A DNA stretch of 64,000 nt from Batillaria attramentaria (Eukaryota; Mollusca; Gastropoda; Batillariidae): NCBI GenBank assembly GCA_018292915.2, contig JACVVK020000088.1, positions 343,501-407,500 of the forward strand, given 5' to 3'. The notes below the pieces were generated by a model that saw nothing but the letters and a program-made list of their open reading frames with translations, ran no database searches and was not told where the DNA came from. Below are positions 3,854 through 56,260 of the stretch, one piece after another (position 1 is the stretch's first letter; the number at the start of each line of letters is the position of its first letter). The position numbers and the translations under genes were made by a program.

Positions 3854-3866
3854 GATCTCCGGATGA

Positions 3867-3935
3867 CACCGGCCCCTGTGGTGTAGTGGTTAGCACTTCG
3901 GACTATGGACCGGGAGACCCGGGTTCGATCCCCTG
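3867..3935 (+). promoter_or_regulatory. tRNA-like head with Pol III A and B boxes at LINE 5' end
   Basis: TGGTGTAGTGGTTAGCAC matches a type 2 Pol III A box, and GGGTTCGATCCC matches the B box about 30 bases later. The sequence is closest by eye to tRNA-Gln/Glu (GTGGTTAGCACT...GGAC). A full cloverleaf is not kept: the acceptor strand has no clear partner, so it is not a tRNA gene. The same head is at 30967 and, alone, in the SINE at 19412-19912. Confidence 0.75.
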
Positions 3936-4066
3936 CCGCGGCAAGCGGTTTTTTTTCCTACCTAGGTCGGCTCCCACCCAGAGCGGGTGTGCTATGGGCC
4001 CAATGGGGAGGCTGTTGCCACACAGCCGAGCTTCACCCACTTCACGGGTGCGACTTGATATGAGAC

Positions 4067-4214
4067 GCCGGCACAGTGCACTTATCTTGATGCGGTGTGC
4101 TGGCTTGCGATCCCTGATGACCCCTAGAGCTATGTCAGTGGGAGCGTAGTGCTCCCGGCAGGTTCAACCAAGCTGAACAGGTCTGTGTTGGGTAGGGGAC
4201 TGACCAAAAGTGCA
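4067..4214 (+). ncRNA. Structured LINE leader module (HDV-like nested pseudoknot candidate)
   Basis: Helices seen: GCCGGCACA (4067-4075) with TGTGCTGGC (4096-4104); TGCACTT (4077-4083) with AAGTGCA (4208-4214), which crosses the first helix; TCCC (4111-4114) with GGGA (4196-4199); GACC with GGTC; and the hairpin GGGAGC-gtagt-GCTCCC (4140-4156). A CCAA stretch precedes the distal strand. The same module with different paired bases occurs in the RTE leaders at 43060-43201 and 52898-53043. Structure is seen in the sequence; catalytic activity is inference. Confidence 0.55.
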
Positions 4215-4558
4215 AACTGGGTTAGGGTAGCTGGAGCTCATTAGCTGTGGCAGGCAATCCAGCTAAGTGAAGGGAAAACACTGACAGAAAACCCGGACAG
4301 GACATAGTTGTCAGCCGTGGCAGGCAAGTGTCCTAGGAAAAGAAAAATTCCAAACAAACACCCCCTGTCTCCCAGCAGGGTCACCTGAGGGCAGGAGGGG
4401 CTCTCTACATCCAGCTGAAGGAAGCCCTCCTAGGAGAAGGAAAACTTCAAACTCAAACCAAGCCAACGAAGTCGGAGTGTCGCTGACTATGCCCAGGAGG
4501 ACATAGTGTGGCAACCCGTCAGGGAGACGAGCACACACGCAACCCAGAAAAATGGACT

Positions 4559-7464
4559 ATGCCTCAGATGGATATATCGTTATGGTGTCGTCCCCGTGGA
4601 CCAAAGCCAGGCGGGGACGGTGCCGGGCCCTCAGCCTCAAAGGGGCCCGCCTCAGCGACTGGCGGCTCTGTCGACCTGGGACCCAGGGGGAGGCAGAGTA
4701 GTGCTACTGGTTGTACCACAACCCAAACAACAGCCATAAGGGTTGCACAGTGGAACGCAGAAGGCATCCAGCAGAAGAAACCAGAGTTACAGGCCTTCCT
4801 CAGAGACAAGAAAATCAACGTCATCTGCATCCAAGAGACACACCTAAATGAAGCTCGCAGATTTTTCATCAGGGGCTATGACAGCTTTCGGCGAGACAGA
4901 CCATCTGGACACAAAGGAGGGGTGCTAACCCTTGTCAGACATGGCATCCCAGCTGCTGTGACTGGACAAACCTCAAGCGGGGAGCTTGAATACATCACCA
5001 CCAAAGTCCTGCTGCAGGGTGAGGAACTCCTCATAACCAACTGCTACAGCCCTCCCACTGCAAGCCTGGACCTCCACACCATCCAGCCCGCATCATACAA
5101 TCACCTGATTGTCGGTGACTTCAATGGCCACTCATCCAGCTGGGGATACGACAACTCAGACTACCGTGGGGAAGAAATAGAAGACTGGCTGATTGACAAC
5201 CAGCTGATCTTGATCAACCAGCCTGACGACAAACCATCATACTACTCCAGAGCCTGGAAGAAAACATCTACTCCGGACCTGGCAATGGCAACCGAAGACT
5301 TACAGAAGCAGACCACCAGAGTCGTTAGCGACCAGTTAGGTGGAAGCGACCACCTCCCCATCATCCTACACATTGCAGACAAGAAGGCCAGCACTGACCA
5401 TCACAGGAAGCATGCCAGCTGGAACTTCAAGAGAGCTGACTGGCTGAAGTACCAACACCATGCTGAAGACCTCTGTAACGTCACCTTTACAGAAGACATG
5501 AACACCAACGTGAAGAGGCTGACCGAATCCATCCTCACAGCAGCCAAAAGGTCAATTCCTCGTGGCTTCAGAAAGGACTACAAGCCGTACTGGAGCAAAC
5601 GGTTGGCCACACTCCACCAGCAGCTTTCTGAAGCACGAACCTGTATGGAGCAGAACCCATCCAGTGAGACCACGGCCAGACACAACAACCTAAAAGAGGA
5701 GTTTAACAGTTGCAAGAGGAAAGAACTCCAACAGAGATGGCACGAGAAGACAGCATCACTCAGCATGGTAAAGGACACTGGGAAACTCTGGCGACTCACA
5801 AAGTCACTCAATGAGGACACCACGACCACCAACAGAACCACTGTCCTCAAGGAAGACGACACCCTCTACACAGGCAAAAAAGCTGCAAACCTCCTTGCTG
5901 ACGTCTTTGAGATGGAGAGCACCATCAAAGTCCCACCACAGAGGAAAAAGGAGGTTGCAACCCAGCTGCATAACAGGCTCAAAGAACAAACAACTCCGAC
6001 CACCGCAATGACATCCGATCTCAGCCTGGCAGAACTAAATGATGCCATCAGAAGACTCAAGACCAAGAAAGCCCCTGGCAAAGTCGGAATCTGCAACGAG
6101 ATGATCAAGCATCTTGGGCCAGCTGCCAGGAAGAAACTGCTTGAGCTGTTCAACCAGTCATGGAAAACTGGCATCTTCCCATCAGCATAAGAGGAGGCCA
6201 CTATCATCCCCATAAGGAAAAAGGAAAAAGACCCAGCAAAGAAAACCAGCTACAGACCTATCAGCCTCCTCAGCTGCCTCGGCAAGACTCTTGAACGGAT
6301 GATAAACAAGAGGCTGATGTGGCACCTGGAATCCAACAACCTGATCACCAAAGAACAGACTGCCTTCAGGAAGAACAGGAGTACTGAAGACCAGCTCGTC
6401 TACCTGGCACAGTCCAGGAGAAGAAGAAAGTGGTCGCCACCTTCATCGATCTGTCCAAGGCGTTCGACAAGGTGTGGAAAGACGGCCTTCTCCTGAAACT
6501 ACTGACCGCTGGAATAGCTGGACACATGTTCAACTGGATCAAGAGCTTCCTGTGCCACAGAACCACAAGAGTCAAGCTGGACAGCAGCCTGAGCCACACA
6601 GTCAAGATCAGGGAAGGGGTCCCCCAGGGAGGGGTGATCTCTCCCACTCTCTTCGTTGTCTTCATCAATGACATTTCCAGTAGTCTGTCCAGGCACATCT
6701 CCAGAGCCCTGCATGCTGACGACTTCGCAATGTGAAACGCCTCAGAGTCCACCTCCTCTGCCACAGTCAGAATGCAAGAGGCCCTCAACACCACCTCCAA
6801 ATGGGCAACGGACTGGTGCGTCACCATCAACAGCCAGAAAACAGTAGCCACCTGCTTCTCTCTTTCTAACACCAAGGAGACTCTCAGACTGACCATCAAC
6901 AATCAGCAGATTACCCAGGAAGACACACCAACATACCTTGGAACCAAGCTGGACAAGAAACTGACATGGAACCCCCACATCAGAGAGATGGAGAAAAGGG
7001 CCACAAAAAGACTCTCTCTCATGAAGAAACTGGCTGGCACTAAGTGGGGAGCCAACAGCAGCATCCTGAAGAGATTGTACATAGGGAATGTACGCCCTGT
7101 GATGGAGTATGGAGCAGCAGCGTGGGCCACCGCAGCAAAGAGCAACACCAGCAGGTTGGCCAAGGTGCAGAACGCAGGCATGCGAATCATCACAGGCGGG
7201 CTGAAAACAACACCCGTACACACCCTCGAAACAACTACAGGACTCCATTCTCTTGAGCTACGAAGGGAGGAGAAAGTGCTCACCCAGAGCGAAAAACTGA
7301 AAAGACTAGCCACGCACCCCGCCCACCAGCACCTCCAAGAACACACAAAGAACCGACTGAAAAGAAGCAGCTTCAACCACCTGGTCAAACAGCTGATGAG
7401 AACACACATGGACATCCTGCCATCCACTGAAGAAGAGGGGGCAGGAGCCACTCCAAGCAGCTGA
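4559..7464 (+). pseudogene. LINE polyprotein: AP endonuclease and reverse transcriptase (broken)
   Basis: The first ATG of the long frame is at 4559. Endonuclease motifs: VAQWNAEGIQ, ICIQETHL, VGDFNGH, STPDLA, GGSDHLP. RT motifs: KKAPGKVG, SYRPISLLSCLGKTLE, FIDLSKAFDKVW (motif A), REGVPQGGVISPTLF, and HADDFAM, where Y/FADD is usual. Breaks: TGG to TAA at 6188 after FPSA, a frame change at about 6418, and TGA at 6733-6735 directly after HADDFAM. The last break is shared with copy 2. After the RT the frame runs to TGA at 7462. The copy keeps motif A, which copy 2 has lost. Confidence 0.85.
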
Positions 7465-7596
7465 GGAATGGGACACCAACCTGGAAGGGGTGCTCCTTGT
7501 TACAGATGTTCCAGGAGTGACCAGCAAGGACGACCAGCCACAAGCCACGCTTAGATCCCTCTCACTAGAAATGCTGGATCGGGACTACAACATGTC

Positions 7597-8090
7597 AGTC
7601 TGGACACACGCCTATACTGACGGGTCCGCAGACTCAGCAGTCAGGAATGGAGGAAGCGGGATTCTCATCCGCCACCCAGATGGCCGCACCACAACAAGCT
7701 CCATGCCTGCTGGACGACTATCCACAAACTAAAAGGCTGAAGTCAATGCTCTCCGAGAAGCTGCCAAGCTCATTGGTAGAGAATCCCCCTGCCCACACAC
7801 GTCGTCTTCCTAACTGACTGCAGATCCGTCATCCAAAGCCTGCAGTCACCCAGTGAGCAGCTGGAAAGAGACACACAGCACCTTCTAGCTGCCCTCTCAC
7901 AACAGATGAAGGTTGCCGTACAGTGGATCCCTGCTCACTGTGGTCTCACAGGAAACGAAGAGGCAGACAGACTGGCCAAGTCTGGCAGCAGAAAAGAGCA
8001 ACCCCAGCAGGTAGTCTCCTACACAGAAGCCAAGACTCTGGTAAAACATCAGTACAAGACAATCTGGACGGCGCAACACAATCCCCCATC
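7597..8090 (+). pseudogene. LINE RNase H domain (broken)
   Basis: Motifs of a type I RNase H are present: AYTDGSA (first Asp), a following AEVNAL block (Glu), FLTDC, and VQWIPAHCGLTGNEEADRLA (His and final Asp). TAA replaces a Phe codon at 7730 (copy 2 has TTC), and a frame change lies in the run before CACACACGTCGTC. Downstream 8090-8431 encodes a Cys/His-containing tail in shifted frames. Confidence 0.75.
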
Positions 8091-8500
8091 TAACGACCAG
8101 ATGCCACAGCTCCAGCGTTATGAACAGACCACCATCTTCAGACTACGAACTGGACACTGCAGACTGCGTGCCCACCTGTGCCGCCTGCCGGGCTGTCACA
8201 CTCATCAGACTGTCCGTGCGGAACAGCCCCTCAAACCCCGGAACACATTCTGCAGTCCTGCCCCCTCTTCAAAGAAGCAAGGACACAACACTGGCCGAAC
8301 GGAGCAACACTGGCAGAGAAACTCTGGGGCAGCAAAACAGACCTCTTGAAGACCACTGCTTATATAAAGACCACAAACCTAATCATCTGAGGCGGAGTCC
8401 AGAACAGGGAACGCAGAAGAAGAAGAAAGAAGATCTCCGGATGAGGTCAGACTCAAAAAGGATTTTGTGGTCAAGCAACAAGATGACGGGTGGAGTTGAT

Positions 8501-19411: not shown

Positions 19412-19912
19412 TTTTGTTTTTTTTTTTTTTTGCTGCCACAACTCTTTGCCGGCTCCAGTGGTGTTCCTCCCTGGTAATGAGTGGAATCCACGGAGGGCTC
19501 GGAAGTTCGGGCAATTTTTATTATGCATGATGATGGAGATGAGGATGATGGTAAGGTGATGCTATGGAGGTCCGTGTGGTTTGTGACTGCGGGACAGGGC
19601 CGCATTCCATGCTTCCTGTCATAAGTATCCCGGCATTAACCAGGCCCGGGAAGTACGGCACCTGCGGTGCCGGCCGTGTAATCATCCACATCATAAGACG
19701 TGTCATACCAAGAGAAGCACCCCCAAAGTCGCACCCGTGAAGTGGGTGAAGCGCGGCTGTGTGGCAACAGCCTCCCCATTGGGCCCATAGCACACCCGCT
19801 ATGGGTAGGAGCCGACCTAAGTAGGAAAAATCCCGCTTGCCTCGGCTGGGACTCGAACCCGGGTCTCCCGGTCCATAGTCCGAAGTGCTAACCACTACAC
19901 TACGGGGGCCGG
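19412..19912 (-). mobile_element. SINE sharing its tRNA head with the I-group LINE
   Basis: Flanked by the 15-bp duplication TAAGTGTAGAATTTT (19397-19411 and 19913-19927) with a poly(A) tail at the left. The reverse complement starts CCGGCCCCCGTAGTGTAGTG, the same head and next ~170 bases (AGGTCGGCTCCTACCC, ATGGGCCCAATGGGGAGGCT, CACTTCACGGGTGCGACTT) as the LINEs at 3867 and 30967, then departs into a different 3' body. Clear Pol III A and B boxes. Confidence 0.85.
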
Positions 19913-20064
19913 TAAGTGTAGAATTTTAATTTTGTTGATAAAATTGATGCAAAACCGCGACACTGTTGTCGGTATGACGTTTTTCTTCCGCAGTGTGCTG
20001 GTGACCGTCTGCTACGCCGATCGGCTCGTAACTGTCTGTCGGTTCAGTGGTTTCGTTGGTGATT

Positions 20065-30966: not shown

Positions 30967-31036
30967 CCGGCCCCCGTGGTGTAGTGGTTAGCACTTCGGA
31001 CTATGGACCGGGAGACCCGGGTTCGATCCCCAGCCG
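30967..31036 (+). promoter_or_regulatory. tRNA-like head with Pol III boxes, copy 2
   Basis: CCGGCCCCCGTGGTGTAGTG, GTTAGCACTTCGG and GGGTTCGATCCC are present, as at 3867. Confidence 0.75.
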
Positions 31037-31655
31037 AGGCAAGCGGGATTTTTTTCCTACCTAGGTCGGCTCCTACCCAGAGCGGGTGTGCTATGGGCCC
31101 AATGGGGAGGTTGTTGCCACACAGCCGAGCTTCACCCACTTCACGGGTGCGACTTGGTATGACACGCCGGCACAGTGCACTTATCTTGACGCGGTGTGCT
31201 GGCTTGCGATCCCTGATGACCCCTAGAGCTATGTCAGTGGGAGCGTAGTGCTCCCGGCAGGTTCAACCAAGCTGAACAGGTCTGTGTTGGGTAGGGGACT
31301 GACCAAAAGTGCAAACTGGGTTAGGGTAGCTGGAGCTCATTAGCTGTGGCAGGCAATCCAGCTAAGTGAAGGGAAAGCACCGACAGAAAACCCGGACAGG
31401 ACATAGTCGTCAGCCGTGGCAGGCAAGTGTCCTAGGAAAAGAAAAATTCCTAACAAACACCCCCTGTCTCCCAGCAGGGTCACCTGAGGGCAGGAGGGGC
31501 TCTCTACATCCAGGCGAAGGAAGCTCTCCTAGGAGAAGGAAAACTCCAAACTCAAACCAAGCCAACGAAGTCGGAGTGTCGCTGACTATGCCCAGGAGGA
31601 CATAGTGTGGCAACCCGTCAGGGAGACGAGCACACACGCAACCCAGAAAAATGGA

Positions 31656-32793: not shown

Positions 32794-34726
32794 CTTACTT
32801 ACTTACTTACTTAGGCCCTTGGCTCCACGTGGAGCATAGGCCATCGACAACCCTTCGCCATCGCACTCTGTTCTGGGCTAGTCTTGCCACTCCAGTCCAG
32901 TTGGTCCCCTGCTTACATAGCTCTGCCTCAGTGTCCCGCCTCCAGCTGTTGCGAGGCCGGCCTCTCTTCCTTTTCCCCTGCGGGTTCCATGTCAGGGCTT
33001 GGCGTGTGGTGCTGGATGCTGGTTTCCTGAGGGTGTGTCCAATCCAGCCCCACTTCCTCCGCAGGATCTGCTTGGCCACTGGTTCCTGCCCCGCTCGCTC
33101 CCACAGCTCTTCATTCCGGATCTTCTCTGGCCATCGGATGTTGAAGATGCGCCTCAGACAGGTGTTGAGAAATGTCTGGATCTTCTGCTGCATCGTCTTC
33201 GTTGTCCTCCATGTTTCGCATCCGTAGAGCAGAACTGACTTCACGTTGGAGTTGAAGATGCGAAGTTTGGTTCTTATGCTGACAACTTTGGATGCCCAGA
33301 CGTTCTTCAGCATGACCATTGCTGCCCTTGCCTTGCCGATTCTGGCTGTGACGTCTCGGTCTGTGCCTCCCTGTCCATCAACCACACTCCCCAGGTAGAC
33401 AAAAGACTCCACCTCCCTGATGGGCTCTCCACCGACTGTGACTGGTGTGTTGGCAGTGGTGTTGATCTTCATCAGCTCGGTTTTCTTCCTGTTGATCTTG
33501 AGCCCTGTTCCGACTGATGTGGCTTCCAGGCACGTAGTCTTGTCCTGCATCTGGCTGTGGCTGTGAGACAGGAGCGCCAGGTCGTCCGCAAAGTCGAGGT
33601 CATCCAGCTGCGTCCAGAGTGTCCACTGTATCCCGTTTTTCCTGCCTGCTGTAGTGGTCTTCATGATCCAGTCGATGACCAGGAGGAAGAGAAACGGGGA
33701 CAACAGGCATCCCTGGCGGACTCCGGTCTTCACCTCGAAGCTTTCTGACAACTGGCCGGCATGGGCAATCCTGCAGCTCGTGTCTTGGTAGGTGCACTGG
33801 ATCAGGGAGATGATCTTCCCGGGAACTCCATAGTGCCTTAGCAGCTTCCACAGCGCCTCTCTGTCTACACTGTCGAAGGCCTTCTCATAGTCTATGAAGT
33901 TGATGTAGAGGGGGGAGTTCCACTCCAGTGACTGCTCCACAATGATGCGTAGGCTGGCAATCTGGTCAGCGCAGGACCTGTTCCTGCGAAAGCCTGCCTG
34001 CTGGTCTCGGAGCATGGGGTCGACTGCCTCTCTCATCCTCTCCAGTAGAATTCTGTTGAGAACCTTGCCTGGCACTGACAGGAGCATGATCCCTCGGTAG
34101 TTGCTGCAGTCCCTGAGGTCCCCTTTCTTTGGCAGCTTGATGACGATCCCTTCTTTCCACTGGGCTGGCACCTCTTCCTTCTCCCAGATCTTGCTGAACA
34201 GGCTGTGCAGCATGTTGACGGCTGTCTCTGTGTCTGCTTTAATGGCTTCTGCTGGTATCTCGTCCGGCCCTGCAGCTTTCCCATTTCTCAGTGTCATGAT
34301 GGCTTTCCTGATCTCCGCCTTAGAGGGCTTGTCACAGTTGATGGGTAGTTCTGTCTCAGCTGGTGGGATGTCTGGTGGTGTTTCAGGGATGGGGCGATTT
34401 AACAGCTCCCTGAAGTGTTCTGCCCATCGCTTCAGCTGTTCCTCAGTTGTTGTCAGTGGGTGCCCGTTCTTGTCCTTCACTGGTTTGTCTGTCTGCTGAA
34501 ATTTGCCCATGAGCTTCTTGGTCACCTGGTACAGGTCTTTTAGATTCCCTTGTCGGGCTGCTTCCTCTGCTTGACTGGCCAGGTTGTCGATGTAGTCCCT
34601 CTTGTCCTTCCTGATGCTCCTCTTCACTTCTCTGTCAGCTGCTGTGTATTCCTCTTGTGCCTTTGCCTTAGCTCTTCTTGTTCGGCTCGTGTTCAGTGCA
34701 GTTTTCTTCTCTTTCCTAACTTCCAG
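32794..34726 (-). mobile_element. RTE LINE nested in LINE copy 2
   Basis: The 14-bp duplication CACAACAACCTAAA flanks it (32780-32793 and 34727-34740). The minus strand encodes one unbroken frame of about 640 residues starting in the linker between endonuclease and RT: RRAKAKAQEEYTAADREVKR, KAAGPDEIPAEAIKAD, KLPKKGDLRDCSNYRGIMLL, FIDYEKAFDSVDRE, VRQGCLLSPF, LDFADDLALLS, and a C-terminal GRPRNSWRRDTEAE. (AAGT)n tail at the left. 5'-truncated, so no endonuclease. Confidence 0.95.
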
Positions 34727-34740
34727 CACAACAACCTAAA

Positions 34741-39568: not shown

Positions 39569-40228
39569 CTTGCCATGTGTGTCATGGCTGTCTGCTAATG
39601 CGTGTCTTCAAGTTTGTGTCTAGGGGTGTCTGAAAATGCAAAATTACATGATTCCTTTTTACGAGCACGATGTCACTATTTTCAGGTTAGCCATTAGCCA
39701 ATCAGCTGCCGGAATTTCTCAAAATTTGACAATAAGCTTACTACTTCAGTGGCGTCGGAAGATGTTCAGGGCTGGGGGGGCACAACTGGCCATCGACGGC
39801 GCGGAGCGCGTAGCCGAAGGCCCCCACACTTTTTTTTTTTTTTTTTTAGCAAAATAAATAAGAAAACGTGTCATTGGGCATGATCATGTGTGTGATTTTC
39901 TCGTTTCACATGTACAGTGGAAGTGTTTTCAGTTGTGTATGATGATTCTGCCTCAAAGTAAAAACACAGAATAAACAATATAATCGTGTACCTACTTTGT
40001 ATGTGTATACAATATATCTATTGGGATTTATGACAGGGGAGTCGCACACGGGAGGGACGGGGAGGCCATGGGTTCACCAAGTTTTTTTTTCCTCCTCTAC
40101 CAAGACCAAGATGAGGTAACAGACACTTTAAACATGACTAAACTTCCTCCAACTCATTCAAGGGGCTGAACTCTGCCTTTTGGATAAGACGTGGGCCCAA
40201 TGACATGGGGGCCCAATGACTTACTTAC

Positions 40229-42925
40229 TTACTTAGGCCCTTGGCTCCACGTGGAGCATAGGCCATCGACAACCCTTCGCCATCGCACTCTGTTCTGGGC
40301 TAGTCTTGCCACTCCAGTCCAGTTGGTCCCCTGCTTACATAGCTCTGCCTCAGTGTCCCGCCTCCAGCTGTTGCGAGGCCGGCCTCTCTTCCTTTTCCCC
40401 TGCGGGTTCCATGTCAGGGCTTGGCGTGTGGTGCTGGATGCTGGCTTCCTGAGGGTGTGTCCAATCCAGCCCCACTTCCTCCGCAGGATCTGCTTGGCCA
40501 CTGGTTCCTGCCCCGCTCGCTCCCACAGCTCTTCATTCCGGATCTTCTCTGGCCATCGGATGTTGAAGATGCGCCTCAGACAGGTGTTGAGAAATGTCTG
40601 GATCTTCTGCTGCATCGTCTTCGTTGTCCTCCATGTTTCGCATCCGTAGAGCAGAACTGACTTCACGTTGGAGTTGAAGATGCGAAGTTTGGTTTTTATG
40701 CTGACAACTTTGGATGCCCAGACGTTCTTCAGCATGACCATCGCTGCCCTTGCCTTGCCGATTCTGGCTGTGACGTCTCGGTCTGTGCCTCCCTGTCCAT
40801 CAACCACACTCCCCAGGTAGACAAAAGACTCCACCTCCCTGATGGGCACTCCACCGACTGTGACTGGTGTGTTGGCAGTGGTGTTGATCTTCATCAGCTC
40901 AGTTTTCTTCCTGTTGATCTTGAGCCCTGTTCCGGCTGATGTGGCTTCCAGGCACGTAGTCTTGTCCTGCATCTGGCTGTGGCTGTGAGACAGGAGCGCC
41001 AGGTCGTCCGCGAAGTCGAGGTCATCCAGCTGCGTCCAGAGTGTCCACTGTATCCCGTTTTTCCTGCCTGCTGTAGTGGTCTTCATGATCCAGTCGATGA
41101 CCAGGAGGAAGAGAAACGGGGACAACAGGCATCCCTGGCGGACTCCGGTCTTCACCTCGAAGCTTTCTGACAACTGGCCGGCATGGGCAATCCTGCAGCT
41201 CATGTCTTGGTAGGTGCACTGGATCAGGGAGATGATCTTCCCGGGAACTCCATAGTGCCTTAGCAGCTTCCACAGCACCTCTCTGTCTACACTGTCGAAG
41301 GCCTTCTCATAGTCTATGAAGTTGATGTAGAGGGGGGAGTTCCACTCCAGTGACTGCTCCACAATGATGCGTAGGCTGGCAATCTGGTCAGCGCAGGACC
41401 TGTTCCTGCGAAAGCCTGCCTGCTGGTCTCGGAGCATGGGGTCGACTGCCTCTCTCATCCTCTCCAGTAGAATTCTGTTGAGAACCTTGCCTGGCACTGA
41501 CAGGAGCATGATCCCTCGGTAGTTGCTGCAGTCCCTGAGGTCCCCTTTCTTTGGCAGCTTGATGACGATCCCTTCTTTCCACTGGGCTGGCACCTCTTCC
41601 TTCTCCCAGATCTTGCTGAACAGGCTGTGCAGCATGTTGACGGCTGTCTCTGTGTCTGCTTTAATGGCTTCTGCTGGTATCTCGTCCGGCCCTGCAGCTT
41701 TCCCATTTCTCAGTGTCATGATGGCTTTCCTGATCTCCGCCTTAGAGGGCTTGTCGCAGTTGATGGGTAGTTCTGTCTCAGCTGGTGGGATGTCTGGTGG
41801 TGTTTCAGGGATGGGGCGATTTAACAGCTCCCTGAAGTGTTCTGCCCATCGCTTCAGCTGTTCCTCAGTTGTTGTCAGTGGGTGCCCGTTCTTGTCCTTC
41901 ACTGGTTTGTCTGTCTGCTGAAATTTGCCGGCGAGCTTCTTGGTCACCTGGTACAGGTCTTTTAGATTCCCTTGTCGGGCTGCTTCCTCTGCTTGACTGG
42001 CCAGGTTGTCGATGTAGTCCCTCTTGTCCTTCCTGGTGCTCCTCTTCACTTCTCTGTCAGCTGCTGTGTATTCCTCTTGTGCCTTTGCCTTAGCTCTTCT
42101 TGTTCGGCTCGTGTTCAGTGCAGTTTTCTTCTCTTTCCTAACTTCCAGTTTCTGGATGGCATCAGCAGAGATCCATTCCTTATGTTGGGTCTTTCTCTTG
42201 TCAAGGACCTCTTCGCATGTGTCGTGCCAGAGTTTCTTGCTGTGTTCCCACTGTGTCTCGATGTCCATTTCACTGTCTTCTATCAGGTCTTGCAGTGGCT
42301 GGAACCTGTTGGAAAGGCTGATCCGGAATGCTGCTTGTGTGTCTGTGTTCCTGAGAAGTCCAACGTTGTACCTGGTCCGTGTGCTGTTGGCGTTGGTGTG
42401 CCTCTTAAGCCGAAGTCTCAATGCTGTTGCAAGAAGGTGGTGGTCTGATGATACATCGGCACCCCTCATCACGCGCACATCCCGCCATGATCTCCTGAAC
42501 TTCCGGCTGATGCAAATGTGATCAATCTGGTTCTCCGTGACATGGTCCGGCGATCTCCATGTGGCCTTGTGGATGCGCTTGTGTGGGAAGATGCTGCCTC
42601 CTATCACTAGCTGGTTCAGGGCACAAAAGTCTGCAAAGCGCTCGCCATTTTCGTTCATCTGTCCCAGTCCATGTGTTCCCATGGTGTCCTCATACAGCAA
42701 TTGCTCTCCCGATGAAAATCTCAGCTGTCCTGTCTGTAGCCACCTTGTCTCACTCAGTCCCAGTACTCCTATCTTGTAGTTCTTCATCTCTCTTGCTACT
42801 TGTATGGTCCTTCCTACTTCATACATTGTCCTGATGTTCCATGTGGCTACTCTCGTCGTTGTCCTGGGTGTTAGAAGGGGGGTCGGCCTTGCAGCTTCCT
42901 TTCGGCTTTCACTGCAATGCGTCAT
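40229..42925 (-). CDS. RTE protein: endonuclease (deleted) plus reverse transcriptase
   Basis: 898 codons, no stop. Endonuclease start: RVATWNIRTMYEVG and LGLSETRW at residues 25-61. At residues 78-84 (LLYEDTMG) the chain jumps directly to THGLGQMNENGERFADFC. Compared with the intact RTE at 53175 about 100 residues are missing, including the GDLNAK block. It resumes at NQIDHI and SSDHH. RT: KAAGPDEIPAE, KLPKKGDLRDCSNYRGIMLL, FIDYEKAFDSVDRE, VRQGCLLSPF, LDFADDLALLS, then the post-RT SVLLYGCETWR and GRPRNSWRRD. The RT looks usable; the endonuclease does not. Confidence 0.9.
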   Translation of the reverse strand: MTHCSESRKEAARPTPLLTPRTTTRVATWNIRTMYEVGRTIQVAREMKNYKIGVLGLSETRWLQTGQLRFSSGEQLLYEDTMGTHGLGQMNENGERFADFCALNQLVIGGSIFPHKRIHKATWRSPDHVTENQIDHICISRKFRRSWRDVRVMRGADVSSDHHLLATALRLRLKRHTNANSTRTRYNVGLLRNTDTQAAFRISLSNRFQPLQDLIEDSEMDIETQWEHSKKLWHDTCEEVLDKRKTQHKEWISADAIQKLEVRKEKKTALNTSRTRRAKAKAQEEYTAADREVKRSTRKDKRDYIDNLASQAEEAARQGNLKDLYQVTKKLAGKFQQTDKPVKDKNGHPLTTTEEQLKRWAEHFRELLNRPIPETPPDIPPAETELPINCDKPSKAEIRKAIMTLRNGKAAGPDEIPAEAIKADTETAVNMLHSLFSKIWEKEEVPAQWKEGIVIKLPKKGDLRDCSNYRGIMLLSVPGKVLNRILLERMREAVDPMLRDQQAGFRRNRSCADQIASLRIIVEQSLEWNSPLYINFIDYEKAFDSVDREVLWKLLRHYGVPGKIISLIQCTYQDMSCRIAHAGQLSESFEVKTGVRQGCLLSPFLFLLVIDWIMKTTTAGRKNGIQWTLWTQLDDLDFADDLALLSHSHSQMQDKTTCLEATSAGTGLKINRKKTELMKINTTANTPVTVGGVPIREVESFVYLGSVVDGQGGTDRDVTARIGKARAAMVMLKNVWASKVVSIKTKLRIFNSNVKSVLLYGCETWRTTKTMQQKIQTFLNTCLRRIFNIRWPEKIRNEELWERAGQEPVAKQILRRKWGWIGHTLRKPASSTTRQALTWNPQGKRKRGRPRNSWRRDTEAELCKQGTNWTGVARLAQNRVRWRRVVDGLCSTWSQGPK

Positions 42926-43059
42926 AGGTCTCCGGGATGGAGACCCTTCCTCGCCCAGGTGAATGTCTCGGTTTGTTGCTGTCGATGCTTTTGTAACTTA
43001 GTGTTTTTTACAGGTAAGGCTGTTAACCCTACGCAAACCCGTTTAGCCTCTTGGAGAGG

Positions 43060-43201
43060 TGGTCCACATTCGTCTGACCTCTACCCTTCGACCTGTCCAG
43101 CTTGGGTGACCCTGCCAGGAGCATGTGCTCCTGCTGGCATAGTTCTCTGGGTCATTGAGGTACACAAGCCACTACCCCACGACAAGGGTTGGACCATGTA
43201 G
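43060..43201 (-). ncRNA. Structured leader module of the RTE (HDV-like candidate)
   Basis: Minus strand, from the 5' end: CTAC (43201-43198) with GTAG (43175-43172); TGGTCCA (43196-43190) with TGGACCA (43066-43060), crossing it; CCC-ttgtcgt-GGG hairpin; ACCTC (43161-43157) with GAGGT (43081-43077); perfect hairpin AGGAGC-acat-GCTCCT (43132-43117); and GACGAA just before the distal strand. The order of parts matches the modules at 52898 and 4067. Confidence 0.55.
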
Positions 43202-43315
43202 GGGGGCCCAATGACACAGGGGCTTAAAGACATCATCCCGGAAAAAGTCTTCGAGGTTAATTTTCCAACACCTTGCTCTGGAACTTACCTCTTTCCAAAA
43301 TGCACACACGCACGC

Positions 43316-52024: not shown

Positions 52025-52897
52025 GTTATTGATGAGGATGTTTATGTTGATGTTGTTTTGTTGTTGTTTTTGTTTTTCAGCTTGTTACCTGCATCATTTG
52101 TTAGAACACAAGCAGTGTTGTTGCGAGGCCCAGGTCTCAGGTCTCTGACCGATTCATCCCCGATTTGACCCATTGATCAGACCCCTGTCCAGTCAAATGT
52201 CCTATTGTTTTTGCGTGGAGGCAGTCAACTGACCGAAAGAAATTTGTACAAAGCGAACGAAGTCTGCAACAGCCTTTAACTTTAGGCATGAAGTGCCAGT
52301 GGCAGTAAGTGATTCTGACTCTCAGTCTCAGTTTACCGACAGTGCATTGCCCCCGAACAGTGCCACGGGTTCTGATGCAAATTCTTCTCTGGCCGAGCCG
52401 AAGCCCACGTACACCCGCCACGTCTCTGGTGACTTTTTTAAATTGTATCCGTGGCTGGTGCTGCGCAACGATTCGGAAGCTGTTCCAAAACTGAGGGGGG
52501 GGGGGGAACCTACTTTCCAAACTAGTACTGAACACTCTGCTGAAGTCAGTTTGCACCGTGGGTTTGGACCTATTGTTTTTTTCCAGCCAGGACAATATTG
52601 GACCTATTGTTTTCTTCAAGCCAGGTCCAACTGACCTATTGCCTTCTTTGGCTGGCAACAACACTGTACAAGGTTGTTGTTTTTTTTCTCTTGTTTTTTT
52701 GTTAACAATTCAAAGTAGACTGAAAAACGGTGTTCATGGGTGTAAGTGTGTTAATTATTAAAAATATGTCGTAAGACCTGCCAACTTCTGCGTATAGTTG
52801 GTATTTGTATTTTTGTAAATTTGTGGTTCTTTTTTGACTATTTGAACAAATTTGTTTGCTAGTACATGATGTGTTTAAGGCAGTTCCTTCAAATCAA
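52025..52897. other. MDM1 intron 6, left part
   Basis: Includes a tandem of about 38 bases around GGACCTATTGTTTT..CCAGCCAGG at 52565-52640. No exon supported. Confidence 0.45.
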
Positions 52898-53043
52898 CCC
52901 CATCGATGAGTGCATCCTTGCCGTTGGAGATGGGGCTTGCGTGTCTCCATGACCCCGAGAGCTATGCTGGCGGGAGATTCGTCTCCTGGTAGGGCCACCC
53001 ATGCTGGACAGGTCGAAGGGTAGAGGCCAGACGAAGCGCACTC
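52898..53043 (+). ncRNA. Structured leader at the exact 5' end of the RTE (HDV-like candidate)
   Basis: Starts at the first base after the target duplication. CCCCATC (52898-52904) pairs with GATGGGG (52929-52935). GAGTGC (52908-52913) pairs with GCACTC (53038-53043), crossing the first helix. TCC-ttgccgtt-GGA hairpin lies between. GTCTC (52943-52947) pairs with GAGGC (53023-53027). GACC/GGTC and the hairpin GGAG-attcgt-CTCC lie inside. GACGAA comes just before the distal strand. Confidence 0.6.
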
Positions 53044-53174
53044 ACTGGTCCTCCAGGTTGGGGGTTTGAGTAGGGCTAACAACCCAACTCTTTAAAAAAA
53101 AAACTGTTACAGAAACTACAACCACAGATCTGCAACGCAACTTGGTCCAGGAAGAGTCCTCTCTAGTAGAGCCC

Positions 53175-56165
53175 ATGACGCGAGCTGGTGAAAGCCCTCG
53201 GGAAGCCAGTGCGCCGACTACTCTTCTGACGGCCAAGACCAAAGCCAGGATAGGGACCTGGAACATCCGAACCCTATACGAAACAGGAAAGACAGCACAA
53301 GTGAGTCAAGAAATGCATAGATACGATCTGAAGCTGCTCGGCCTATGTGAGACAAGATGGACAGGAACAGGACGCACACGACTCACCTCCGGAGACACCA
53401 TCCTCTACTCCGGACACGAAGACGGCCAGCCACACATGCATGGAGTAGCGTTGCTGATGACACCTGAAGCAACACAAGCACTATTGTCCTGGGAACCAGT
53501 GTCACCAAGGATCCTGAGCGCCAGATTCAATTCCAAGGGCAGGAAAGTCACCATCCTCCAGTGCTACGCCCCCACCAACGTGGCGGACGAGGAAGAAAAG
53601 GAGAACTTCTGTGAGCAGCTCCAAGCCATCCTGGACAAAGCACCGAGAAGAGACCTGAAGATCCTCATGGGAGACCTCAACGCCAAAGTGGGCACCGACA
53701 ACACAGACAGAGAACTCATCATGGGCAAACATGGAACAGGGACACAGAACGAGAACGGAGAGCTCTTCACAGAATTCTGCACCACCAACGACCTGGTCAT
53801 CGGAGGCACCATCTTCCCGCACAAGAACATCCACAAAACCACCTGGACATCACCGGACGGAAGAACTGTAAACCAGATCGACCACATCACCATCGGCAGA
53901 AAGTGGCGAAGAAGCTTGCTGGACGTCCGAGCAAAGCGGGGAGCTGATGCAGCCTCAGACCATCACCTCGTCATTGCAGCGATCAAGATCAAGCTGAAGG
54001 CCTACAGAGACCAGGCGGACAGACCATCTCACAAGTACAACGTGCACAGTCTGAAGGAGAGCGTCAAGACCAACGCCTTCAGGTGTGAGCTGAGGAACAG
54101 ATTCAGCGCTCTTGACACACTACCTGAAGAGACAATCGAGGAGCACTGGCATTACCTGCGAGAAACCTGGACAGCAACATGCAAGAAAGTGCTGGGAAAG
54201 AAGACGAGACAACACAAAGAGTGGCTTACATCTGACACCTGGGACCTCATCACAGAGAGAAAACGCCTGAAAGACCTGATCAACCACACTGACGACCAAG
54301 ACGACAAGTGCGACCTGCAGGCTCAATACTGGGACGTCAACCGGCAGGTCAAGAGGAGCGCAAGGAACGACAAGAGGAACTTCATCAACGACCTCACAGA
54401 AGAAGCAGAAACAGCAGCAGGACAACGGAACATGAAACGGCTCTACGAAATAACAAGGACACTCTCTGGGAAAAATAACAACCCCACCAGACCAGTCAAA
54501 GACAAGAACGGACAAATCATCACCAAAGAGGAAGACCAAAGGACAAGGTGGGCTGAACACTTCAAGGAAACGCTCAACAGGCCTCCACCACCAGTCCCAC
54601 CAGACATACCACCGGCAGCCCAGCTACTCGACATCAGCACCAACCCCCCTACCAAGACCGAGATCATCAAAGCCATCAAGTCCCTCAAGTCTGGCAAAGC
54701 AGCAGGCCCCGACGGCATACCACCAGAAGCCCTCAAGGCCGACATCCAGACCTCCACCGACATGCTGCACCCGCTCCTGAGGAAGATCTGGGAGAACGAG
54801 AGCGTGCCACAAGACTGGAAGAAGGGACACCTGGTAAAGCTGCCAAAGAAAGGGGACCTCTCATCCTGTAGCAACTGGCGAGGCATCATGCTCCTGTCCA
54901 TACCAGGGAAGGTTCTCACCAGGATCATCCTGGAGAGGCTGAAGACCGCGCTGGACAAGACACTCCGGGAGGAACAGGCAGGATTCCGCAACGACCGATC
55001 CTGCACTGATCACATAGCCACGATGAGGATCATCATCGAGCAGTCCCTGGAGTGGCAGACCCCTCTGTACAGCACCTTCGTTGACTTCCAGAAGGCGTTC
55101 GACAGTGTTGACAGGGAGGTCATCTGGAAGCTGATGTCTCACTACGGTTTTCCACCAAAGTTTGTCAACATCATCCGACAGCTGTACGAAGATGCCACCT
55201 GCCAGGTAATCCACGATGGGAAACTGACAGAGCCATTCACAGTACGGACCGGTGTTCGTCAAGGCTGCATCCTCTCACCCACAATCTTCCTGATGGTGGT
55301 CGACTGGGTCATGAGGCAAGCCACCGACGGCAAGAGGACAGGGATCCAGTGGACCTTCAGCAAACAGCTCGAGGACCTGGATTTCGCGGATGACATCGCC
55401 CTCCTCTCCCGCAAACAACAAGATGCGCAGGAGAAGCTGAACAGAGTCGCCGAAGAAGCTGAGAAGACCGGCCTCAAGATCAACATCAGCAAGACCGAAG
55501 TCATGAGAGTCAACCACAAACTGCACGACCCCATCCAGCTGCACCAGGAAGACATCAAAGAGGTGGACAAGTTCGTCTACCTCGGCAGCGTTGTCAGCAA
55601 GGATGGAGGAACGGACGAGGACATCAAGAGCCGCACCAACAAAGCCAGACATGCCTTTCGCACTCTACGCCCCATCTGGAGATCCACAGCCCTATCCCTG
55701 CGAAACAAGATCCGGATCTTCAACTCAAATGTGAAGTCGGTCCTACTCTATGGCTCGGAGACATGGCGCACCACCAAGACAAGCTCCCACAAGCTGCAAA
55801 CCTTCATCAACAGATGCCTCCTCAACATTCTCAACATCAGATACCCACTGGTGATCACCAACCAAGACCTCTGGGAGGGAACAAGACAGGTCCCCATCGA
55901 GCAGGAGATCAAGAAAAGGAAATGGGAATGGATCGGACACACTCTGCGAAAATCAACATCAAATGTCACCAGGCAGTCCCTTGACTGGAACCCCCAGGGA
56001 AAGCGCAAAGTGGGCCGACCGAAGCAGACCTGGCGGAGGAGTACGGACGCTGAAGCCAAGGTCGCCGGAACGACGTGGGCCAAACTAAAGAGGGCATCCC
56101 AGAACCGAGTGCGCTGGCGGAGTGTGGTTGCAGCCCTATGTTCCCCAGGGAATAAAGAGGATTAA
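53175..56165 (+). CDS. RTE protein: AP endonuclease and reverse transcriptase, intact
   Basis: The first ATG in frame is at 53175 (MTRAGESPREAS), giving about 996 residues to TAA. Endonuclease near residues 25-250: RIGTWNIRTLYETG, LGLCETRWTG, ILMGDLNAKVGTD, NQIDHITIG, AASDHHLVI. RT near 470-770: KAAGPDGIPPEALKAD, KLPKKGDLSSCSNWRGIMLL, FVDFQKAFDSVDRE, VRTGVRQGCILSPTIFLM, LDFADDIALLS. Post-RT: SVLLYGSETWRTTK, RKWEWIGHTLRKST, GKRKVGRPKQTWRRS. All expected catalytic residues are present and there is no stop or shift. Likely a recent, possibly active copy. Confidence 0.95.
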   Translation: MTRAGESPREASAPTTLLTAKTKARIGTWNIRTLYETGKTAQVSQEMHRYDLKLLGLCETRWTGTGRTRLTSGDTILYSGHEDGQPHMHGVALLMTPEATQALLSWEPVSPRILSARFNSKGRKVTILQCYAPTNVADEEEKENFCEQLQAILDKAPRRDLKILMGDLNAKVGTDNTDRELIMGKHGTGTQNENGELFTEFCTTNDLVIGGTIFPHKNIHKTTWTSPDGRTVNQIDHITIGRKWRRSLLDVRAKRGADAASDHHLVIAAIKIKLKAYRDQADRPSHKYNVHSLKESVKTNAFRCELRNRFSALDTLPEETIEEHWHYLRETWTATCKKVLGKKTRQHKEWLTSDTWDLITERKRLKDLINHTDDQDDKCDLQAQYWDVNRQVKRSARNDKRNFINDLTEEAETAAGQRNMKRLYEITRTLSGKNNNPTRPVKDKNGQIITKEEDQRTRWAEHFKETLNRPPPPVPPDIPPAAQLLDISTNPPTKTEIIKAIKSLKSGKAAGPDGIPPEALKADIQTSTDMLHPLLRKIWENESVPQDWKKGHLVKLPKKGDLSSCSNWRGIMLLSIPGKVLTRIILERLKTALDKTLREEQAGFRNDRSCTDHIATMRIIIEQSLEWQTPLYSTFVDFQKAFDSVDREVIWKLMSHYGFPPKFVNIIRQLYEDATCQVIHDGKLTEPFTVRTGVRQGCILSPTIFLMVVDWVMRQATDGKRTGIQWTFSKQLEDLDFADDIALLSRKQQDAQEKLNRVAEEAEKTGLKINISKTEVMRVNHKLHDPIQLHQEDIKEVDKFVYLGSVVSKDGGTDEDIKSRTNKARHAFRTLRPIWRSTALSLRNKIRIFNSNVKSVLLYGSETWRTTKTSSHKLQTFINRCLLNILNIRYPLVITNQDLWEGTRQVPIEQEIKKRKWEWIGHTLRKSTSNVTRQSLDWNPQGKRKVGRPKQTWRRSTDAEAKVAGTTWAKLKRASQNRVRWRSVVAALCSPGNKED

Positions 56166-56260
56166 ACTAACTTCAAATCAAACTCCGCAATAACCTGTTT
56201 TTCAAATATTACAGCATTGTCATCTTGGCCAAAGTATAATTTTTCTAATTTGTCTTTCAG

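Follow-up and report, generated by a model that had tools for sequence, protein, structure and literature searches.

A structured module at the start of RTE-type LINEs and inside an I-type LINE of Batillaria attramentaria is very probably an HDV-like self-cleaving ribozyme, whose P4 domain is enlarged and conserved in sequence. The module was located in a window of 64,000 nt (assembly GCA_018292915.2, contig JACVVK020000088.1, positions 343,501 to 407,500, forward strand) and followed through the genome. From the fold, its covariation, the exact 5′ ends of one element (RTE1) and the target-site duplications, all of them read in sequence, we infer cleavage and the order of events proposed below. 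Features of the window are given in Table 1.

Table 1. Positions of the LINEs, their ribozyme modules and associated features in the 64,000-nt window.
Feature	Position	Strand	Basis or remark
RTE1 ribozyme module	52898..53043	+	direct reading, covariation, 5′ ends
RTE1 module P1	52898-52904/52929-52935	+	
RTE1 module P2	52908-52913/53038-53043	+	
RTE1 module P3	52915-52917/52926-52928	+	
RTE1 module L3	52918-52925	+	UUGCCGUU
RTE1 module P4a	52943-52947/53023-53027	+	
RTE1 putative catalytic C	53032	+	within GACGAA
RTE1 5′ target-site duplication	52887..52897	+	CTTCAAATCAA; adjoins first ribozyme base
RTE1 3′ target-site duplication	56171..56181	+	CTTCAAATCAA
RTE1 whole element	52898-56170	+	bounded by CTTCAAATCAA duplications
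RTE1 open frame, stop to stop	53070..56165	+	PF03372 endonuclease, PF00078 reverse transcriptase, DUF6451
RTE2 ribozyme module	43060..43203	-	first base 43203; direct reading, covariance model
RTE2 module P1	43203-43198/43175-43169	-	bulged U 43171
RTE2 module P2	43196-43190/43066-43060	-	
RTE2 putative catalytic C	43072	-	
RTE2 3′ duplication	40209..40219	-	TCATTGGGCCC; 5′ copy 43204-43214; exact limit ambiguous through C run
RTE2 open frame, stop to stop	40229..42997	-	PF00078 reverse transcriptase, DUF6451
I-type LINE ribozyme module, copy 1	4068..4214	+	direct reading, covariance model
I-type copy 1 P1	4068-4074/4097-4103	+	
I-type copy 1 P2	4077-4083/4208-4214	+	
I-type copy 1 putative catalytic C	4204	+	within GACCAA
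I-type LINE ribozyme module, copy 2	31167..31313	+	putative catalytic C 31303; direct reading, covariance model
tRNA-like head, I-type copy 1	3872..3943	+	Rfam tRNA 32.8 bits
tRNA-like head, I-type copy 2	30970-31041		
I-type LINE copy 1, inserted unit	3867..8431	+	perfect 13-nt duplications GATCTCCGGATGA 3854-3866 / 8432-8444
SINE with same tRNA-like head and next ~105 nt	19726..19913	-	

The clade name RTE is that of the first-pass annotation, and the placement of RTE1 and RTE2 in it is provisional; domain content and tails were compared with those of the clade. Members of the RTE clade encode an endonuclease and a reverse transcriptase in a single frame, without RNase H, and end in a short-repeat tail. 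The RTE1 frame matched PF03372 and PF00078 without RNase H in a domain search, the same search at E 0.001 gave no endonuclease match in the RTE2 frame, and copies of both ended in TAAAC/TAAG-type repeats. Their proteins were 54% identical over 814 residues. I-group LINEs encode an endonuclease, a reverse transcriptase and RNase H, and all three domains were matched in the I-type LINE, for which the broken-frame pieces of two copies were searched apart. The best match of its protein was a Batillaria attramentaria protein (98% identity over 74% of the query). The module was also present, with different P1 and P2 sequences, in further RTE-type subfamilies, for which the names RTE3, RTE4 and RTE4b were coined in this analysis; the family count is a lower bound. 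Early in the frames of RTE1 (window 53165-53227) and an RTE3 copy (L010, 910-972), weak SECIS_1 matches were seen (19.5 and 23.7 bits, cut-off 35), which are probably due to chance. Dispersed repeats of approximately 147 nt, partly tandem (families D1-D6), occur at many places between 283 and 63200 of the window.

The leaders had been annotated at first pass as sharing a set of ordered parts. Direct reading found these at or within 1-3 nt of the places given, and a covariance model searched against the window at E 10 returned just the four places named. The annotated starts were moved in two cases. The RTE2 element begins at 43203 and not at 43201; the I-type module, previously started at 4067, has its first base at 4068 (CCGGCAC) in the register set by the end of P1′, GG-CUUGYG (dash at the end of the helix). 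This motif was present in 42 of 51 distinct module sequences, and its register makes the first ribozyme base a C.

The covariance model was built from an alignment of six representatives (RTE1, RTE2, RTE3, RTE4, RTE4b and I), and 21 genome copies, hand-picked among those fetched, were aligned to it. Because the model shaped this alignment, and because members of one subfamily are related by descent, comparison between families weighs more. Standard pairs filled 93.9% of 667 cells in P1, P3 and P4; when the partners were displaced by 1-3 columns, the share was 31.9-52.8%. The covariation score for these helices was 0.341 (shuffles 0.165 ± 0.012; reached by 0 of 500). Two-sided changes occurred at 14 pairs (9.7 in shuffles; 2 of 500 reached this), and further pair types were not above shuffles (32 against 31.7; 276 of 500). 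P1, a helix of about 6-8 bp closed after the P3 hairpin, was paired in 78.8% of cells, a figure for which three of the four RTE1 rows sit one column out of register. The P4 helices (3-7), between P1′ and J4/2, were paired in 96-100%.

P2 crosses P1, with its 3′ strand after J4/2, and was left out of the covariance model; it provides the cleanest test. Pairs formed in 84.9% of 126 cells (22.2-51.6% slid), and the covariation score of 0.719 was reached by none of 500 shuffles, which gave 0.271. Two-sided changes were seen at each of the 6 pairs, with a shuffle mean of 4.9 and 121 of 500 shuffles also reaching 6; further pair types again did not rise above shuffles (9 against 11.1; 496 of 500). 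P2 failed in rows that include the I-type copies, where it is shifted by one column, and L048, where this region carries a short duplication. An excess of compensatory changes had been predicted for a larger set of copies: covariation scores above all 500 shuffles bear this out, and the further pair types do not. In a hand alignment of the six representatives, with helices chosen by the analyst, two-sided changes were found at 6/7 pairs of P1, 7/7 of P2, 1/3 of P3, 3/5 of P4a and 3/5 of P4c. Partner strands were also permuted between families, the strands being chosen by the analyst and hence biased towards pairing. For P1, a single permutation in 720 equalled the pairing energy of the own partners, and for P2 two in 120 did so; the result was weaker for P4a (12 of 120) and P4c (20 of 720).

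The P4 domain (approximately 90 nt) was conserved in sequence, its unpaired parts included, and words such as TGACCC.AGAGCTATG were nearly fixed though partly unpaired. Were the module chiefly an internal promoter acting at the DNA level, such words would be promoter elements. A precedent is Pr77 of trypanosome L1Tc, described as promoter and ribozyme (PMC4035085, PMC4748587), and the two roles are mutually compatible. A promoter as the chief function is nevertheless very unlikely, given the two-sided pairing changes in P1, P2 and P4, which call for a reason at the RNA level.

In HDV-like ribozymes, L3 is described as retaining a U and a G, and J4/2 as retaining a C (PMC3774820). In the snail, L3 read UUGNCG in 48 of the 51 module sequences; one exception, UUGAUG, keeps the U and G, and the other two, UUGUCC and UUGACA, lose the G. 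The loop TTGNCG had been assigned to all leaders, which holds for the others but not for the first I-type copy, which reads UUGAUG. J4/2 was internally deleted in 3 of the 51 sequences and retained its C in 46 of the remaining 48 (GACGAA 33, GACCAA 9, GACAAA 3, AACGAA 1); the other two read GATGAA. The first P1 pair was C-G in 16 of 20 rows, where G1-U is usual in HDV. This departure had earlier been listed as a doubt; the pair is as described, but experimentally active L1Tc/ingi ribozymes likewise have C1 as first base (PMC4035085), which weakens the objection; a G1-U pair is not a defining feature.

Rfam HDV families gave no match in the window at gathering score and none at E 10 in the RTE1 leader (52800-53250) or in six genome loci (L010, L018, L048, L019, L180 and L001), so that comparison with existing HDV-like models, as proposed at first pass, returned nothing in any of the three. 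By eye, P1.1 had one possible G-C pair (the L3 G with the C of GG-CUUG), which is nearly invariant and thus uninformative. The missing Rfam match and this weak P1.1, a single pair or none, would suit a leader that is a related but different structured RNA with a coincidental likeness to HDV. We consider that extremely improbable, since helix order, the crossing P2, the L3 and J4/2 signatures and the position of the 5′ end all agree. The HDV-like interpretation of the first-pass annotation is supported by the topology (P1, P2, P3, P1′, P4, J4/2, P2′), the covariation, U and G in L3, the C-NAA of J4/2 and the 5′ ends of RTE1 copies at C1, and we retain it as a prediction from sequence.

The word TGACCCNNAGAGCTATG had 509 exact matches in the 715-Mb genome (863 contigs), and its reversed control had 0. 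In the window, five matches with up to three mismatches were found, a number reached by 1 of 100 shuffles; GGCTTGYG alone was not significant there (7 found, 4.3 expected). The word TGACCCNNAGAGCTATG was found at 39 loci in viral contigs, but only four weak covariance-model matches were obtained (E 0.27-0.36) and these were taken as chance. Relatives of the RTE1 protein were not found in the viral contigs.

From the 509 word matches, a sample of 40 RTE1-type copies was read, all picked for exact TGACCCCGAGAGCTATG. The switch from flank to element fell exactly at C1 in 39, which confirms that the module begins at the first base of this element. The fortieth copy, L031, carries a 7-nt duplication just downstream of C1. 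Among 29 flanks compared in one set no two were alike, and the flank of copy L200 resembles that of L031 by eye. A recognisable 3′ end was present in 18 of the 21 loci fetched long enough, and in 14 of these 18 a duplication of 11-14 nt ended exactly before C1. The non-conforming copies had a duplication of only 6 nt (L099), a match running two bases further (L100), one extra base before C1 (L091) or four extra bases (L090). Base -1 in the 39 copies was C17 G9 A8 T5, a mixture that gives no sign of a cap-templated extra G. The usual capped transcription start differs from a C first base with a mixed base -1. A fixed transcription start could also produce so sharp an end; with no extra G and C as the first base, an uncapped, cut end appears to fit better than a capped start.

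In RTE2, P1 is CCCUAC with GUAG(U)GG, giving six pairs and one bulged U, and the same bulge can be drawn in RTE4 and RTE4b. The mismatch previously noted in this helix can be drawn as a bulge rather than a broken helix, and the doubt attached to it is weakened. J1/2 of RTE2 is one nucleotide long. The mosquito ribozyme drz-Agam-2 lies in an RTE. Constructs of drz-Agam-2-1 with a one-nucleotide spacer are reported to have little activity (PMC4908430), and for this reason the J1/2 of RTE2 is counted against a ribozyme. Seven RTE2 copies were viewed by eye, and the 3′ end is readable in five. Agreement is to within 0-2 bases in four of them; the fifth, L121, carries 14 additional bases ahead of the module. 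Four of the five (L121, L122, L124 and L126) are short and internally deleted, with ribozyme module and 3′ tail retained; they resemble the NARTc/RIME elements of trypanosomes (PMC4035085).

The module had also been described as the leader of the I-type LINE. It lies approximately 200 nt inside: copy 1 spans 3867-8431 between 13-nt duplications, and copies L108, L115 and L119 have duplications at the head too (by eye). Because duplications flank the head, the tRNA-like head is part of the element. SINE-LINE composites with tRNA heads are a known kind, and as in these, the head and the next ~105 nt match a SINE in the same window; here, unlike in those composites, its partner is a protein-coding LINE of 4.4 kb, and the two are joined at the ribozyme start. 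The likeness between SINE and LINE, within which a 16-nt stretch is missing from the LINE, stops at GGTATGACACG, the last base before the copy 2 ribozyme; the next LINE base is C1. The LINE part of the chimera thus starts at the predicted cleavage base, give or take a base or so by chance match. Copy 2, which starts near 30970, has an apparent 5′-truncated RTE2 copy inside it on the opposite strand (32797-34735).

The 5′ word of the I-type module was found, with up to two mismatches, in 64 genome copies. As C1 is the first base of this word, the set leaves out copies truncated beyond it. The head region lay upstream in 60, the last 27 nt of it after another sequence in two, and neither in two, the reading of some copies spanning only about 90 nt. 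That the module sets the 5′ end is therefore an overstatement for this LINE, 62 of 64 copies carrying head sequence upstream. These 62 were copied past the site, which indicates that the I-type ribozyme is slow, blocked or bypassed. Two sequence features could account for such tameness: a G at -1, for which the base following P1′ offers a partner, and the U-G pair of P3. L153 (G000 C360) and L159 (G000 C589) have a different upstream sequence in common, with its junction 27 nt ahead of the ribozyme, and are a second kind of 5′ chimera. In G000 C30:1010934-1073787, eight I-type 3′ words follow one another in a single orientation, spaced about 8.6-9.8 kb apart (seven intervals); the LINE tail is probably part of a tandem repeat unit there.

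Both headless copies (C132 and C103) start exactly at C1, in unrelated flanks. C1 of the I-type LINE had been set at 4068 from the P1′ register before these copies were read. C132 is an internally deleted element of approximately 519 nt with a (GAA)n tail, and an 11-nt duplication, CTGGGAAGCTT, lies directly before C1 and after the tail. A 13-nt flank search did not show this duplication. A search with tail context gave 17 places (14 in the reversed control), of which the one lying 0.5 kb from the module was taken as that of C132 and confirmed by direct reading. In C103 no duplication was detected in the 726 bases read. P3 read ACC in seven of the 64 copies, ATC in 56 and ATG in one; two of the seven ACC copies were headless and 0 of the 57 others (Fisher p 0.010), an association noticed after the fact and used as a lead only.

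A conserved fold that does not cleave could explain part of these data. It would instead shield the 5′ end of the RNA, attract ribosomes or be bound by the LINE protein, and the 5′ end would be set by the transcription start. The head is kept in most I-type copies, where the fold would persist without cleavage, and the P4 domain is conserved even where unpaired. An HDV-like fold used as an RNA 5′ module is reported to improve R2-based insertion, which its authors credit to protection from 5′ degradation (PMC11331408). This explanation is unlikely in view of the J4/2 C kept in 46 of 48 undeleted modules, the C first base with a mixed base -1, unlike the usual capped start, and headless I-type copies beginning at the same structural position.

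As a self-cleaving ribozyme, the module would act as follows. An RTE element would be transcribed within a longer RNA, from outside; the nested pseudoknot would fold, and the J4/2 cytosine would cut directly before C1, leaving an RNA that starts exactly at the C1 of the element. Reverse transcription of this RNA into a new site would yield a copy that again begins at C1, with the duplication abutting it, and that brings the ribozyme along. In the I-type LINE, the homologous module probably marks an older 5′ end of the element, and the SINE-like head would have been added where cleavage occurs. The simplest route is a template switch, in which the reverse transcriptase reached the cut end of the LINE RNA and jumped to a SINE RNA.

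The reverse transcriptases of RTE1 and RTE2 were 26-28% identical to that of the I-type LINE. In DNA comparisons (blastn, E 0.001), RTE and I-type elements matched nowhere but in the module itself (RTE2-I 73.8% over 107 nt; RTE1-I 72.5% over 91 nt), on which the homology of the modules is based. Exchange of the ribozyme between LINE types appears likelier than a P4 held tightly since their common ancestor. One version, which we regard as possible but rather doubtful, is that the cassette passed between RTE and I-group LINEs in one animal lineage, that a reverse transcriptase jump then gave the tRNA head, and that the headed lineage survived through a weakened ribozyme. The weakening might, equally tentatively, have come from a P3 change of ACC/GGU to AUC/GGU together with a G at -1 pairing past the site, so that the head was no longer cut off.

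HDV-like ribozymes are established at the 5′ ends of LINEs (R2, R4, Dong, L1Tc and RTE), as had been stated at first pass (PMC3774820, PMC4035085, PMC7761336, PMC8256844), and in R4, Dong, L1Tc and RTE cleavage is placed at the first base of the element (PMC3774820). Among the closest known systems is L1TcRz/Pr77-hallmark of trypanosome L1Tc/ingi and SIDERs, also an HDV-like ribozyme at the LINE 5′ end with C1 and G-C pairs in P1, which short derivatives with internal deletions carry as well (PMC4035085). Pr77 has a length of 77 nt; the snail module reaches approximately 146 nt through its large P4 and is found in a single animal in two types of LINE. The R2, R4, Dong, Baggins and RTE ribozymes, including mosquito drz-Agam-2, are likewise nested double pseudoknots that cleave at the element 5′ end or close to it, with the catalytic J4/2 C and the conserved L3 G; the enlargement lies in J1/2 in drz-Agam-2 and several R2 ribozymes and in P4 here (PMC3774820, PMC4908430). 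The abalone Haliotis discus has a different HDV-like ribozyme (PMC3774820). Literature searches covered HDV-like ribozymes of LINEs, of SINEs and of molluscs, and none of the papers listed had a title on RTE ribozymes of molluscs. Four features are new in this data set: the large, sequence-conserved P4, its occurrence in one genome in LINEs of two types, the absence of an Rfam match and the SINE head at the cleavage base.

LINE-borne HDV-like ribozymes are thereby extended to the mud snail and to a large-P4 form invisible to Rfam, and because this form is missed such ribozymes may be undercounted. Insertion ends that fall on the predicted cleavage base, in RTE1 and two I-type copies, provide a natural, genome-only test of ribozyme function. 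With the head fused at the predicted cleavage base, two questions become directly testable: by what steps a LINE sheds or restrains its own ribozyme, and in what way 5′ ends pass between LINEs.
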